A stretch of DNA of 64,000 nucleotides from Candidatus Peregrinibacteria bacterium (lineage in GTDB: Bacteria > Patescibacteriota > Gracilibacteria > UBA1369 > JACRIC01). Positions 72-61,426 of the stretch are shown here, in pieces. The number at the start of each line of letters is the position of its first letter. Within the stretch, counting starts at the first letter, position 1. The DNA lies in contig JACPHH010000022.1 in the NCBI GenBank assembly GCA_016188705.1, positions 1-64,000 on the forward strand. Reading direction: 5' to 3'. The translations under genes were made by a program, and so were the position numbers. Below the pieces are notes generated by a model. The model did not search any database. It was not told the DNA's origin and was given only the letters and a program-made list of their open reading frames with translations.

Positions 72-1199
72 ATGGAAAATAATATGAAAAAAAAATATCA
101 AGGAACCTCTGAAAAACACAATTTCGAAAACGAAAATGCAAAGATTCGAGCGAAAACGCTGAACGACGACGAAGGCGTATCAAAAAAAGATACGTCAAGG
201 AGGAGTGAAGCGTTTGCAGCCGAATCTTTGCATTTGCAGTCGAAAGGGTGTTTTTCAGAGGTTCCTCAATACATCGCATTTCTCGCATTGAGCCTGATAA
301 TGGTGATTACTCCTCAGAGCGTATCTGCTCAAACAGGAACCCCTGCTCTCGACAAATTACGGGACGCAACGACATATAATGGAGCTTCAATCATTCCAAA
401 TTTTGATATGGGGCATCCTGACTGTCAAAGCGCTTCACCAGGAGTAATCAATCTTTGCAGCGCCATTCTCTATGTTACGGATTTTTTGAAATACGTCGTC
501 GGAAGCATCGCCGTATTCTATCTTTTCATTTCGGCTTTTCGCTTGATTACGGCAGGGGATAAAGTCGATGACGTGACGACAAAGGAAAAAGAAAATTTTC
601 AATATGTTATCATAGGTCTCATTATTATTATCATGTCATCCTCGCTCATTAATAATGTGATCTCGAGTGAAGGAGGAATTGAATTTTTAGAATCGATATC
701 AGCCGCGGAAAATTCAGGACAAATCGCGTCCCAACACATACAGGGAGTATATAATTTTCTTAAAATTTTTATCGGAGCCATTGCCGTGCTGTTTATACTC
801 ATTTCCGGTGTAAAATTACTTGTTTCAGCAGGAAAAGACGATGTGCTCCAGACTCAAAAAAAACACATTCTCTGGGCATTGGTCGGAATTATGGTTATTG
901 GAATTGCCGAACTCGTGGTGCAGGATATAATTTTTGGCAGCCAAAAAGACCCTGGAACCGAAATAGACTATTCAAAGGCCTTAAGACTCATAGCTGACCT
1001 CACGAATTTCCTCGCGAGCTTCATTTCTTTCATAGCTATTCTCGCCGTAATTTATGCTGGATTTCTCTATATCACATCACGGGGAGAAGAGGAAGGAGTA
1101 ACCCAGGCAAAAAAAATTCTTACAGGAGTCGTGCTAGGGCTCATACTTACGGCGGCATCGTATGCCATCATCAATACGCTTATAGGTTTACAAAAATAA
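72..1199 (+). CDS. Membrane protein with three tandem T4SS-pilin-like (VirB2/TrbC-like) two-helix units; signal peptide interrupted by a palindromic repeat
   Basis: 375-aa ORF. Three similar segments of hydrophobic helix, short charged loop (AGDKVDD, AGKDDVLQ, SRGEEEGV) and hydrophobic helix. Signal-peptide-like YIAFLALSLIMVITPQSVSA. Confidence 0.75.
   Translation: MENNMKKKYQGTSEKHNFENENAKIRAKTLNDDEGVSKKDTSRRSEAFAAESLHLQSKGCFSEVPQYIAFLALSLIMVITPQSVSAQTGTPALDKLRDATTYNGASIIPNFDMGHPDCQSASPGVINLCSAILYVTDFLKYVVGSIAVFYLFISAFRLITAGDKVDDVTTKEKENFQYVIIGLIIIIMSSSLINNVISSEGGIEFLESISAAENSGQIASQHIQGVYNFLKIFIGAIAVLFILISGVKLLVSAGKDDVLQTQKKHILWALVGIMVIGIAELVVQDIIFGSQKDPGTEIDYSKALRLIADLTNFLASFISFIAILAVIYAGFLYITSRGEEEGVTQAKKILTGVVLGLILTAASYAIINTLIGLQK
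101..266. repeat. Family A palindromic element, copy A1 (166 bp), inside the CDS
   Basis: Ends AGGAACCTCTGAAAAACAC / GTGTTTTTCAGAGGTTCCT. Inner stem AATGCAAAGATTCG / CGAATCTTTGCATT. Core GAGCGAAAACGCTG...GGCGTATC...GATACG...GAAGCGTTTGCAGCCGA. Confidence 0.9.
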
Positions 1200-11591: not shown

Positions 11592-11758
11592 AGGGAAACC
11601 CTGATAAATATGATTTCGTTACGAAAATTGCAAAATTTGAGCGAAAACGCTGAGCGACCGACGAAGGCGTATCAGAAGAAGATACGGCGAGGAGGTCTGA
11701 AGCGTTTGCAGCCGAATTTTGCAATTTGCAGTAGTAAGCATATTTATCAGGGTTTCCT
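11592..11758. repeat. Family A palindromic element, copy A2 (167 bp)
   Basis: Ends AGGGAAACCCTGATAAATATG / CATATTTATCAGGGTTTCCT. Same core as A1. One extra G in the left arm. Confidence 0.9.
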
Positions 11759-18308: not shown

Positions 18309-18393
18309 AGGGTTCCTAAAATCATAATTTTGTTACGAAATTTGCAGCCAAAATTTGCAATTACAGTAGAAAAGATGTTTTTCAAAGATTCCT
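18309..18393. repeat. Core-deleted family A element, short form S1 (85 bp)
   Basis: TTTTGTTACGAAATTTGCAGCCAAAATTTGCAATTACAGTAG...TTTTTCAAAGATTCCT; the inner core hairpin is absent. Confidence 0.75.
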
Positions 18394-21343: not shown

Positions 21344-21509
21344 AGGGAACCTCTGAAAAACGTAACTTCGTAACGAAATTTTACCATGTTGAGCGAAAAA
21401 TGTGAAAAGCGACGAAGGCGTATCAGATAAGATACGCTCAAGGAGCTTTGAACATTTTGTAGCCGACATGGTAAAATTGCAGTAGATGGTACATTTTTCA
21501 GAGGTTCCT
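21344..21509. repeat. Family A palindromic element, copy A3 (166 bp)
   Basis: Ends AGGGAACCTCTGAAAAA / TTTTTCAGAGGTTCCT. Inner stem ATTTTACCATGT / ACATGGTAAAAT. Fills the rsmG-rlmE gap. Confidence 0.9.
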
Positions 21510-22258: not shown

Positions 22259-22424
22259 AGGGACATGCTGAAAAACAGATTATTGAAGCGAGATTTTTGT
22301 ATTTTGTGCGAAAACGTTGAAGCGCGAAAGAGACGTATCAGATAAGATACGGCGATGAGCGCTGAAACGTTTGTAGTCAAAATACAAAAATCGTAGCTCT
22401 TAAGATGTTTTTCAGCATGTCCCT
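22259..22424. repeat. Family A palindromic element, copy A4 (166 bp)
   Basis: Ends AGGGACATGCTGAAAAACA / TGTTTTTCAGCATGTCCCT. Inner stem GATTTTTGTATTTTG / CAAAATACAAAAATC. Confidence 0.9.
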
Positions 22425-29741: not shown

Positions 29742-29921
29742 GAGGCCTGAACAATATAACTTTGATTTTTCAAATATCTCTTTCTAAGGCGCGCGGTGAA
29801 GCCTGGCACTGCGCGCCTGCCATGGGCTTATAATCAAAAATTTGTCATTTTTTTAAATTTTTCTTCAAAATAAGTCCGAACATCACTGTAAAAGACCAGC
29901 CAAGTTGTATATTGCGATTTT
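29742..29921 (-). repeat. Family C inverted repeat, right copy (180 bp)
   Basis: GGCCTGAACAATATAACTTTGATTTTTCAAATATCTCTTTCT...GTCCGAACATC...GCGATTTT matches the left copy inverted. Confidence 0.85.
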
Positions 29922-30018
29922 TTCGCGGATTTTTGGTATGGAATTTGCAGGCGGCAAAAAGTGGCTTGCCGCCTGAAAAAACCGTGGGAAATTTCGGTGA
30001 AAAAATTGCAATATACGC
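29905..30018. repeat. Family D palindromic element with central hairpin
   Basis: GTATATTGCGATTTTTTC / GAAAAAATTGCAATATAC arms; centre GGCGGCAA...TTGCCGCC; abuts tRNA-Gln. Confidence 0.7.
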
Positions 30019-30020
30019 AG

Positions 30021-30094
30021 TGGCTGGGGAGGAAGGAGTCGAACCTTCACGTACGGCTTCAAAGACCGCTGTCCTACCATTAGACGACTCCCCA
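30021..30094 (-). tRNA. tRNA-Gln (UUG), CCA encoded
   Basis: TGGGGAGTCGTCTAATGGTAGGACAGCGGTCTTTGAAGCCGTACGTGAAGGTTCGACTCCTTCCTCCCCAGCCA; anticodon loop CTTTGAA. Confidence 0.95.
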
Positions 30095-30144: not shown

Positions 30145-30270
30145 GTACTTGCCAATCGTTTTTTTGAAAAAGAGGGCGGGGACTCCCATTTGAGCGCATA
30201 GCGAAGCGTAGCGAAAATGGAGTCCCCGCCCTCTTTTATCTGAATAAAAAACAACAGCGGTGTGCAGGTA
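30145..30270. repeat. Family B palindromic element, copy B1
   Basis: GAGGGCGGGGACTCCCATTTGAGCGC...AAAATGGAGTCCCCGCCCTC in weaker arms GTACTTGCC...GGTGTGCAGGTA. Confidence 0.85.
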
Positions 30271-44068: not shown

Positions 44069-44234
44069 AGAACTTATCCATGAATAGGGATTCGTCACGA
44101 AATCTGCAAATTTTTGCTGCAAACGTTTCATCGCTCCTCAGCGTATCTTCTTCTGATACGCTTTCGTCACGAGTTCAACGTTTTCGCTCAAAATTTGCAG
44201 ATTACAGTAGAATACATATTTATGGATAAGTTCT
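44069..44234. repeat. Family A palindromic element, copy A5 (166 bp), core inverted relative to arms
   Basis: Ends AGAACTTATCC / GGATAAGTTCT. Left GATTCGTCACGAAA and right TTACAGTAG keep A1-A4 orientation, but the core reads as reverse complement. Confidence 0.9.
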
Positions 44235-45231
44235 AAAGTCGAATAATATCGTGACTTTCAAAATTTTCTTGTTTCAAAAATATCGGATGTTCAGCGCTTT
44301 TTAAGCCATAAAGTCCATTTTTTCCGGTTTCCATTTTTTTCCAGGAACGAATCATTTTATCAGCGAGTTCATATTCCATGGACCTCTTATCATGAAATTT
44401 TGCCTTCATGAGCCACCATTTTACGAGAAAATTTTTGGGATCCGCGTGCAAAATTTCCTCGCAGGTTCGAATCGCTTCGGAAAATTTATCTTCACGGTAA
44501 AGTCTGCGTGCTCGATCATAACTCGAATGAATAAACGCAGCTTGTTCATGCCTTTTCTGTTCGGAAATACATTGCTCGCATTCATGAATAAGCCTGTGAA
44601 TTTTCGAATAATTTGGCAGAATATGAAGAAGTTCGGAGTAGAGATGAAGAAGATCCTGAAAACGTCGCGCTTGAAGGTAAGAAGAACGTTTTTCAAGTTC
44701 CGAATTGACATAGAGCTTACTGATTCGACTAAAACATTCGGAAATATTTTTTTCATAGGGCAGCGCTTTTGCAAGTCTGCCGCAGAATTCGAATGCCTCT
44801 TTGAGATCGCCCGACCGTTCAAGTTCTCGAACGTATGCAAGCCCTTTTTTCACGCGATCATGAAGCATGTCCTGACGCTTTTCTTCTCGTTTTTTTCGCA
44901 AGGTTAAAAGCCCCTGCTCCACTTCTTCCGTTTCCGGCAAATATTCATTCAAAGCGAGAAATATTTTTTCCAATTCTTCATGTTTTTTTTCTTTCCAAAG
45001 ATGATTCGCTTCTTTTAAAGCTATTTTTACCTTTTGGTAGCGGGCTTTTTTCCACAATGAATAAACCTTGTTTCGTATTTTAAAACAATCATAATCGAGT
45101 GGGAAAACATGCAAAAGTTCATCGCAACCTTTCAAGGCGAGCTCATACTGTTTTTTTTTCATAAATTGACGCACCGCCTTCATGCCACGGGCTTTATAGG
45201 TATCTTCCGGTTTTTTGGACAAAAAAAACAT
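44233..45231 (-). CDS. TPR-like helical repeat protein
   Basis: Repeated A.....Y..A...C..LL...P motifs; stop codon at the edge of A5. Confidence 0.65.
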   Translation of the reverse strand: MFFLSKKPEDTYKARGMKAVRQFMKKKQYELALKGCDELLHVFPLDYDCFKIRNKVYSLWKKARYQKVKIALKEANHLWKEKKHEELEKIFLALNEYLPETEEVEQGLLTLRKKREEKRQDMLHDRVKKGLAYVRELERSGDLKEAFEFCGRLAKALPYEKNISECFSRISKLYVNSELEKRSSYLQARRFQDLLHLYSELLHILPNYSKIHRLIHECEQCISEQKRHEQAAFIHSSYDRARRLYREDKFSEAIRTCEEILHADPKNFLVKWWLMKAKFHDKRSMEYELADKMIRSWKKMETGKNGLYGLKSAEHPIFLKQENFESHDIIRL

Positions 45232-45450
45232 TATGAAATCTACTTATTTTAAAATTTTTATCAATTCCAATCGTAATAAGTCCTAACTCCTGATTATTTC
45301 ATGAATGATTTGATGTAAAATTGGTATTACTTTTGAATAATGAATTCACGATTATCATTTCAGAGATTCCTTCGTATACTTTGCTGGACATCTGGACATA
45401 TTACAAATATATTTTAACATACTCATATTAAAAATACAATAACTGTCTAG

Positions 45451-45577
45451 GTATTTGCTCACCGCTTTACTTTTTATTCAGGTAAAAGAGGACGGGGACT
45501 CCATTTTCGCTACGCTTCGCTATGCGCTCAAATGGTAGTCCCCGCCCTCTTTTCTTAAAAAAAGCGGTGGGCAGGTA
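45451..45577. repeat. Family B palindromic element, copy B2 (opposite orientation)
   Basis: GACGGGGACTCCATTTTCGCTACGCTTCGCTATGCGCTCAAATGGTAGTCCCCGCCCTC. Confidence 0.85.
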
Positions 45578-45692
45578 CCCAGGGCGCAATGATTTCAGCG
45601 ATGGATCTTTTAATCATATATAAAATTTACTATCAATATTATATAGCTAGATATAGAATAATATAAGATAGAATCTATACAATTTTATGTGT

Positions 45693-50389: not shown

Positions 50390-50506
50390 GTACTTGCCCA
50401 TCGCTTTTTTAGAAGAAGAGGGCGGGGACTCCCATTTGAGCGCGTAGCGAAAATGGAGTCCCCGCCCTCTTGCTATCTGAATAAAAGCAAGGCAGTGGGC
50501 AAATAC
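50390..50506. repeat. Family B palindromic element, copy B3
   Basis: GAGGGCGGGGACTCCCATTTGAGCGCGTAGCGAAAATGGAGTCCCCGCCCTC. Confidence 0.85.
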
Positions 50507-59557: not shown

Positions 59558-61351
59558 ATGTATCGAACACATACCCTTGGTCAACTGAATGAAAAAAATA
59601 TCGGTGAAAAAGTTACATTAAGTGGATGGGTTCACCGGCGGCGCGATCACGGCGGACTCATTTTTATCGATTTGCGCGACCGCTATGGAATGACTCAAAT
59701 AGTTTCCGATCCGACGCATAATGCCGAGACGCACGCCACTACCGAAAGTATGAGATCGGAATTCGTGATAAAAGCTGAAGGTACTGTAAGAATGCGCCCT
59801 GACGGCATGGAAAATATCAAACTTGTGACAGGAAAAATTGAAGTTTTAATCGATACCGTTGAAATCTTGAATCCCGCGAAAACACCGCCATTTGAAATCG
59901 AACATCCTGAAGAAAAAGAACGCGAAGTAAATGAAGAAATCAGGCTGACATACCGTTATCTCGATTTACGAAGAGAACGAATGAAAAATAACATCGTGAT
60001 GCGCCACAAAACGATTAAATGCATGCGTGATTTTTTCGACAATAAACAATTTTTGGAAATTGAAACCCCGATTCTCGTAAAAGGCACTCCTGAAGGAAGC
60101 AGGGAATATATTGTGCCTTCGAGGCTCTATCCTGCTCATTTTTACGTGCTTCCTCAATCTCCCCAGCAAATGAAACAGCTTCTCATGGTTGCGGGAATGG
60201 ATCGATACTTTCAAATAGCGCGCTGCTTTCGCGATGAGGATCAGCGCGGCGACCGTCAGCCCGAGTTTACGCAGTTGGACATTGAAATGAGTTTTGTGAC
60301 GGAAAAAGATATCATGGATCTCAACGAAGAACTGATGATCAAACTGGTGGAAACCCTGGTGCCTCACAAAAAAATACTTAAAAAACCGTTTCCGCGAATT
60401 ACATGGAAAGAAGCCATGGATCGTTTTGGTTCCGACAAGCCGGATATGCGATTTAACATGGAAATATGCGATGTAACGGAAATCGTAAAAAGCTGCTCAT
60501 TTCAAGTATTTCAAAATGCCATCAAATCTGGCGGCGTGGTCAAAGCGCTCAAGGTTGAGGGAGGAGCTTCATTTTCACGGAAAGAAATTGATGAACTCAC
60601 GGAACTCGCGAAGGTATACGAGGCAAAAGGACTCGCGTATATAACCGTGGAAAAAGAAGGTCCGAGCGGAGCGATTGTAAAATATTTTGAAAAAAAAGAA
60701 CTCGATGAACTTCTCTCAACAACCGAAGCAAAAAATGGCGACATTATTTTTTTTGGAGCGGATCGATATGAAATTGCCTGCACGGCTCTTGGATACGTTC
60801 GTTTGGCCTGCGGCGATAAAATGAAACTCAGAAATAAAGATACCTACGCGTTCTGTTGGATAAATGAATTTCCTCTTTTTGAATATTCGAAAGAAACAAA
60901 ACAGTTGACCGCAAGCCATCATCCATTTACGAGTCCGTTGCCTGATGATCGCTCCATGCTGAAAAATTCGCCGGAAAAAGTAAGAGCCATAGCCTATGAT
61001 CTCGCCATGAATGGATCTGAAGTCGCAGGCGGAAGTATCAGAATTCACAATTCCGCGCTTCAGAGCGAAATTTTTGATACTCTTAAAATTTCAAAACAGG
61101 ATGCGGAACGACGCTTTGGACATCTTCTTCGGGCATTTCAATTTGGCGCGCCGCCTCATGGAGGAATTGCTTGGGGAATCGATCGCCTTATCATGCTTTT
61201 TCAGGACGAAAAAAACATTCGCGAAGTAATTGCTTTTCCTAAGGATCAAAAAGCAAAAGATCTGATGCTTGGGGCTCCCAGCGAATTACCGGACGATCAA
61301 ATCGCCGAAATGCATATCAAAATAGCCCAACCTCAAAAAGAGATTCTCTAA
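59558..61351 (+). CDS. aspS: Aspartyl-tRNA synthetase
   Basis: GWVHRRRDHGGLIFIDLRDRYG, QSPQQMKQLLMVAGMDRYFQIARCFRDEDQRGDRQPEFTQLDIEMSF. Confidence 0.97.
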   Translation: MYRTHTLGQLNEKNIGEKVTLSGWVHRRRDHGGLIFIDLRDRYGMTQIVSDPTHNAETHATTESMRSEFVIKAEGTVRMRPDGMENIKLVTGKIEVLIDTVEILNPAKTPPFEIEHPEEKEREVNEEIRLTYRYLDLRRERMKNNIVMRHKTIKCMRDFFDNKQFLEIETPILVKGTPEGSREYIVPSRLYPAHFYVLPQSPQQMKQLLMVAGMDRYFQIARCFRDEDQRGDRQPEFTQLDIEMSFVTEKDIMDLNEELMIKLVETLVPHKKILKKPFPRITWKEAMDRFGSDKPDMRFNMEICDVTEIVKSCSFQVFQNAIKSGGVVKALKVEGGASFSRKEIDELTELAKVYEAKGLAYITVEKEGPSGAIVKYFEKKELDELLSTTEAKNGDIIFFGADRYEIACTALGYVRLACGDKMKLRNKDTYAFCWINEFPLFEYSKETKQLTASHHPFTSPLPDDRSMLKNSPEKVRAIAYDLAMNGSEVAGGSIRIHNSALQSEIFDTLKISKQDAERRFGHLLRAFQFGAPPHGGIAWGIDRLIMLFQDEKNIREVIAFPKDQKAKDLMLGAPSELPDDQIAEMHIKIAQPQKEIL

Positions 61352-61426
61352 AAACAAATTTTTGTTGCGAAATTTGCAGCCAATTTTGCAAATTGCAGTA
61401 GTAACAACGTTTTTCAAAGGTTCCCT
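61342..61426. repeat. Core-deleted family A element, short form S2 (85 bp), overlapping the aspS stop
   Basis: TTTTTGTTGCGAAATTTGCAGCCAATTTTGCAAATTGCAGTAG...GTTTTTCAAAGGTTCCCT. Confidence 0.7.

Follow-up and report, generated by a model that had tools for sequence, protein, structure and literature searches.

Family A, to which the five nested palindromic repeats of the window (the whole stretch of 64,000 nucleotides analysed here) belong, is a large group of tiny mobile elements distributed across many Patescibacteria. It is a non-autonomous mobile element (MITE), and its stems have changed in sequence without loss of the hairpin shape. Taken as a whole, the observations are probably best explained by a MITE that is mobilised by IS5-family transposases, carries an interior selected for its fold, and is tolerated in frame in genes. 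The initial annotation missed the transposable nature of the repeat, which duplicates 4 bp of its target (target duplication, TSD) and has ends that match IS5-family insertion sequences, as well as the in-frame copies in genes (including the one at 101-266) and the phylum-wide spread.

Copies, ends and target duplications

The window comes from a Peregrinibacteria-type CPR genome of 1.37 Mb (35 contigs, 94.65% complete), and its gene content is likewise of CPR type, with PamR-like and PKD proteins and type IV secretion pilins. The five copies (Table 1) lie at the coordinates given for them initially, with lengths of 166, 167, 166, 166 and 166 bp, and all fold into the nested hairpins described (RNA minimum free energies of -63 to -90 kcal/mol); the apical hairpin, in the form GTATC-N7-GATAC, occurs three times in the window against an expectation of 0.04. 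The fifth copy overlaps the stop-codon end of the ORF at 44233-45231.

Table 1. Family A copies in the window, with the gene that contains the first of them
Feature	Position	Strand	Element proper	Target duplication	Remarks
Copy 1	101-266	+	102-265 (164 bp)	TCAA at 98-101 and 266-269, exact	Sub-family A2, inner stem TGCAAAGATTCG
Host ORF of copy 1	72-1199	+			Type IV secretion pilin-like, 375 aa; Pfam T4SS_pilin/TrbC
Copy 2	11592-11758	+	11594-11757	TAAG/TAAA, 3/4 match	Sub-family A1, ends GGAAACCCTGATAAAT; intergenic
Copy 3	21344-21509	+	21346-21508	TTAG/TTAG, exact	Sub-family A3, TTTTACCATGT; between rsmG-like and ftsJ-like genes
Copy 4	22259-22424	+	22261-22422	CTAG/CTAG, exact	Sub-family A6, ends GGACATGCTG; intergenic
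Copy 5	44069-44234	-		TTTA/TTAA, 3/4 match	Sub-family A5, ends GAACTTATCC
Decayed short member	18309-18393	+			32.9 bits with the covariance model
Decayed short member	61339-61426	+			35.2 bits with the covariance model

Further copies throughout the genome, which the initial annotation had said would support its reading, were found by the dozen already by BLAST, and a covariance model (R1) built from 33 copies gave 84 matches, about 62 of them near full length. The sub-families are set apart by their stem sequences; five are represented in the window, sub-family A4 has no full copy there, and A1 comprises about 18 copies in the genome with 93-99% identity. Lengths of 162-164 bp dominate, accompanied by variants of 67-87, 124, 180-189, 201-204 and 216-219 bp, so that the supposed constancy of length holds as a near-fixed length and not as an exact one. 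The family is present in 27 of 148 relatives and in 41 of 287 genomes sampled from the whole phylum, some of which, single-contig genomes among them, have 8-18 copies. In three genomes (G034, G394 and G229), many matches stop at contig ends inside the core; the repeats thus break assemblies, and the copy numbers are probably underestimates. An exact-pattern scan of all GTDB contigs matched only Peregrinibacteria, with a pattern too strict to settle the range; every named relative with this core motif is a Candidatus Peregrinibacteria assembly. Viral contigs and phage and plasmid collections contained no match to the family. In Rfam no copy reached the gathering score, and a permissive search gave only chance-level matches (best E = 0.25), in line with the surmise that no described family is concerned.

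The terminal repeats of Family A are GGAACCTCTGAAAAAC. With the element bounded at GG...CC, the 4 bp on either side agree exactly in 40 of 71 copies of the window's genome (5.2 expected by permutation) and in 13 of 62 copies of relatives (2.3 expected), with a target duplication consensus of about YWAR. At the boundary tested, no 4-bp TSD is seen in the phylum-level copies. With up to two mismatches allowed, 115 end-like sequences were counted on one strand and 110 on the other, compared with 2 and 0 in the control. The same ends occur in IS5-family insertion sequences (ISs) from other genomes of the same class: L247 (1176 bp), whose transposase gene has one in-frame TGA, has ends GGAACCTCTGAAAAAC and the TSD TTAA; L246 has ends GGAAGCTCTGAAAAAC and the TSD TTAG; and L244 has ends GGACTCTCTGAAAAAA. 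The transposases of L223 and L244 belong to the protein family IS5_4, and the transposase loci L297-L299 and L301 have unrelated ends. Family A therefore shows the features by which a MITE is recognised, namely ends equal to those of an IS, a TSD of the same length and kind, a size below 500 bp and no transposase inside. Judging from the matching ends and TSDs, it is probably mobilised in trans by an IS5-type transposase.

Despite the recent-looking copies, no PF01609 or L223-type transposase was found in the window's genome, in an assembly that is 94.65% complete, and a close transposase is present in only 6 of 148 relatives. A transposase in the same genome is no strict requirement, since a MITE may persist after its partner has gone. 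Eighteen near-identical A1 copies stand in this genome without a detected matching transposase, and the transposase behind them may have been lost, may be unassembled, or may come from another family. The possibility that the core itself derives from an IS was rejected, since covariance-model matches inside ISs reach only 15 bits. In the more distant genome G229, a core copy of 183 bp has the ends AGAACCTGTTCAAAATCTC, which match those of a resident decayed DDE-type IS (AGAACCTGTTCAAAATCTT); because this copy carries different ends, the core pairs with at least two kinds of ends. The initial view that no described family has this sequence thus holds for the core, which matches no IS tested, but not for the ends, which are those of the IS5 family.

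Other palindromes and traces of rearrangement accompany the family. A second palindromic family (AAAAGAGGGCGGGGACTCC / GGAGTCCCCGCCCTCTTTT, outer ends TGCCCACCGC) lies in the window at 30168-30237, 50416-50471 and 45447-45582, and at six other loci of the genome (L038-L040 and L142-L144) it encloses the Family A core to form a compound of about 290 bp; this compound was rejected as an autonomous partner, the repeat around the core being too short for a transposase gene. At 29896-30027 of the window, imperfect inverted arms of 62 nt (74% complementary) end at a tRNA gene (30024-30094). A further short palindrome with ends GGCAGTGTTCA occurs in L143 (after 1200) and L168 (about 740-780); the one in L143 appears to carry a similar apex motif (GACGACAAG...AAGGAGTGACGCAG) and is possibly a distant relative of the Family A core. 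Near-alike apical inserts (CGGGGTCCCCGTTCTGGACTGAGCGAAGCGA...) are found at the same place in different sub-families (L147, L148, L149, L132:3713, L030, L155 and L158), which suggests that apices have been exchanged between copies; two copies of G034 (L191 and L192) have a different insert at the apical position. One copy (L042, G000:C20:13194-13422) contains an internal tandem duplication and another (L030) is a chimera of an A3 left part and an A1 right part; both are traces of recombination between or within elements.

Covariation of the stems and conserved G·A mismatches

That the stems covary between copies was proposed from the five copies of the window. In the set from the same genome, 29 of 50 consensus pairs keep pairing despite change on both sides. 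Two larger alignments were examined, one of 93 copies from this genome and its relatives (set 1) and one of 45 copies from other classes of the phylum (set 2), none of the latter having been used in building the model and reverse-strand and partial rows having been dropped; the model served both to gather and to align the two sets, and it is biased toward pairing and G-U. In set 1, 96.4% of the pair cells are standard pairs and 48 of 50 pairs have changed on both sides, with a covariation score of 0.589 as against 0.164 for shuffled alignments and less than 0.09 with the partners slid; in set 2, 92.7% of the cells are paired and 49 of 50 pairs have changed on both sides, with a score of 0.712 as against 0.198. 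Against a null in which the substitutions are redistributed over an unchanged tree (our own R-scape-style implementation), 24 pairs are significant in set 1, including 21 of the 50 modelled pairs, and 29 in set 2, including 27 of the 50, so that the covariation does exceed what the phylogeny would produce. The significant pairs beyond the model (69-97, 64-102 and 22-143 in set 1; 69-96 and 25-139 in set 2) all nest in the same hairpin, and no pair contradicts it. Pair 69-97 of set 1 is the same as 69-96 of set 2; it lies between two G·A tandems, and because it is outside the model, its covariation does not come from an alignment fitted to it. G-U cells outnumber A-C cells by 122 to 60 in set 1 and by 147 to 27 in set 2, an excess that would fit selection on one strand and is only suggestive, because the model itself prefers G-U.

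Many of the best-conserved columns are unpaired and form stacked tandem G·A/A·G mismatches. The motifs are CGAA/TGCAG, which occurs twice and has one bulged base, TGAA/TGAA, and CGACGA/GAGGAG, in which two tandems surround one covarying pair (C-G, G-C or A-U). Among the 93 copies, the mismatches G31·A136, G51·A116, A52·G114, G67·A99 and A68·G98 are found in 91, 92, 90, 86 and 85, respectively, and about 91-99% of the copies keep G·A or A·G at motifs A and B and the outer part of D. Conservation is looser, at 61-80 of 93, in TGAA/TGAA and in the inner tandem of CGACGA/GAGGAG.

The conserved fold is favoured to be a folded RNA, or possibly single-stranded DNA (ssDNA), recognised by a protein. 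It is somewhat unlikely that the fold acts specifically as ssDNA, in the form of a hairpin or cruciform during replication or DNA uptake, like attC or the ends of IS200/IS605. In a near-palindrome, conserved mismatches that are asymmetric would set one strand apart from the other, DNA too can hold stable tandem G·A mismatches, and the orientation of the copies relative to flanking genes shows no bias toward the sense strand. However, the 4-bp TSDs and IS5-type ends are those of DDE transposition, which acts on double-stranded DNA and does not require the interior to fold; the search for a transposition partner was made in the DDE family. The unbiased orientation also leaves a cis-acting mRNA element unsupported and makes a role in the element's own life cycle seem likelier than cis regulation.

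The initial annotation had left the choice between selection on a fold and correction of one arm from the other. We regard it as unlikely that there is no selection on the fold and that template switching or inverted-repeat recombination within a copy rewrites one arm from the other. Such copying is consistent with the fifth copy of the window, whose core is inverted relative to its own outer arms in comparison with its nearest sister (L032), and with double changes in recent sub-families (4 cells in A1 and 10 in A3), which exceed the expectation for independent changes. Plain arm correction is nevertheless insufficient, because copying from arm to arm would erase the G·A mismatches, which belong to the columns that vary least across the order; selection on the fold is favoured because these non-complementary loops are the best-conserved columns. 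In addition, the base pair flanked by the two G·A tandems shows covariation of its own in both sets, and recent one-sided changes lean toward G-U over A-C, in a few events.

The notion of an ordinary type II MITE, in which nothing but the ends counts and the interior owes its conservation to recent descent from a few horizontally spread masters, would account for the patchy distribution and for bursts of sub-families such as that of A1. It is nonetheless distinctly improbable, as the stems have been largely replaced between families while loops and pairing persist, 21-27 modelled pairs exceed the tree-preserving null with none contradicting the fold, and the same core is found with unrelated ends.

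Copies inside genes

Among the 133 copies of the window's genome and its relatives, 16 lie inside ORFs, and in all 16 the element plus TSD is divisible by 3 and free of stops. Elsewhere, 36 of 117 copies are divisible by 3 (Fisher 6e-8, or 5e-5 with the ten domain-supported genes only, related copies being treated as independent in both cases). At least 10 copies are in recognisable genes (hisF, pyrD, ksgA, queE, prmC, uvrC and others), all in frame. The PDB alignment of HisF reaches the insert and resumes after it, residues 137|165 corresponding to 137|138 of HisF-LUCA; in a carboxynorspermidine decarboxylase, residues 298|358 correspond to 298|302 in a PDB alignment; and the PDB alignments of KsgA and PyrD are likewise split by the insert, a predicted insert peptide in PyrD being AKTLKDDEGVSEEDTTR. 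The QueE, UvrC, PrmC, sugar transferase, glycosyltransferase and O-antigen ligase hosts were identified via Pfam or PDB matches. In the window, the reading frame of the pilin-like gene stays open across the first copy, which is inserted near the 5′ end, with MKKKYQ before it and the hydrophobic segment of the signal peptide after it. One antisense frame is open in 49 of 90 copies, as against 8.8 expected with shuffled stems, an excess inflated by relatedness; in the phylum set it is open in only 8 of 45.

Removal of the in-gene copies by splicing at the RNA level, or their skipping by ribosomes (byp-like), is highly improbable and was rejected: copies do interrupt conserved enzymes mid-domain, but all 16 in-ORF copies preserve the frame and lack stops, and there is no sign of splicing or ribosome hopping, because the inspected long empty-site ORFs of out-of-frame copies look like intergenic junctions or chance extensions and not like broken genes.

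Relation to known repeats and a model of the element

The closest counterparts may be the Rickettsia palindromic elements (RPE) and the Wolbachia palindromic elements, which are about 100-170 bp long, form several families per genome in hosts with reduced genomes, and lie both between genes and in frame inside conserved enzymes (PMC2229807, PMC10969869). Family A appears to resemble RPE in the way it works, being palindromic, of similar size, inserted in frame in conserved enzymes and resident in a reduced-genome host. It differs in phylum, in having a 4-bp TSD and a matching IS, the target duplication of RPE being entered as "?" (PMC2229807), and in its phylum-wide covarying fold with G·A motifs, which we did not find reported for RPE in the open-licence literature. 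Like IS5-family and other IS-derived MITEs, Family A is short and has terminal inverted repeats (TIRs), a TSD, no transposase and ends equal to those of an IS; unlike them, it has an interior of non-IS origin whose fold is deeply conserved, and it goes with more than one TIR type, matched by different ISs. The repeat bcr1 has a length of about 155 bp. With bcr2 to bcr18 it makes up the MITE-like, partly transcribed repeats of the Bacillus cereus group, some families of which have a conserved RNA structure (PMC3446304). Family A recalls them as a MITE-like repeat of similar length with a conserved fold, but the bcr repeats are confined to one species group in those reports, and in-frame insertion in genes and a partner IS were not found reported for them in the open-licence literature. 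Correia/NEMIS and ERIC elements give stable hairpin transcripts, have TSDs and affect mRNA processing (PMC10969869, PMC2229807). Their hosts and sequences are different, and phylum-wide covariation was not found described for them in the open-licence literature. The attC sites of integrons work by their folded shape and not by their sequence, with asymmetric unpaired bases; they differ in having no TSD and in depending on a site-specific integrase, whereas the TSDs of Family A are of the DDE type. Membership in the RAYT-associated REP/BIME units, which are 20-40 bp long (PMC3733652) and lack TSD-forming DDE ends, was rejected, as Family A measures about 164 bp and has a 4-bp TSD. The open-licence literature was not found to describe a fold that covaries phylum-wide in combination with conserved G·A motifs and exchangeable ends, a bacterial MITE whose interior is held by phylum-wide covariation, or protein-coding palindromes in Patescibacteria.

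In the probable model, IS5-family transposases recognise the ends in trans and insert the element at YWAR-like 4-bp targets. The interior of about 120 nt, which is not derived from the IS, is a conserved structured module consisting of one long hairpin with stacked sheared-type G·A tandems and a GTATC-type apex, in which the stems would drift while selection on the folded strand held their complementarity. The fold would most likely act as RNA, or possibly as ssDNA, to which a protein shared by these bacteria binds, and would help the element to persist or spread. Stop-free copies that add a net length divisible by 3 would survive in genes as peptide inserts of about 26 or 56 residues, in the manner of RPE. 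It is also tempting to speculate, with a confidence that falls somewhat short of even, that a structured RNA (or ssDNA) module with a protein-binding function of its own rides any available IS5-type ends across the phylum.

The match between TIR and IS supplies a testable mechanism of mobilisation, and the in-frame inserts in enzymes of known structure make the gain of protein inserts testable in a second group besides the Rickettsiales. The conserved mismatches point to a binding partner common to bacteria with reduced genomes. If the module does ride on available ends, it would be a structured-nucleic-acid parasite of transposons and not their by-product.
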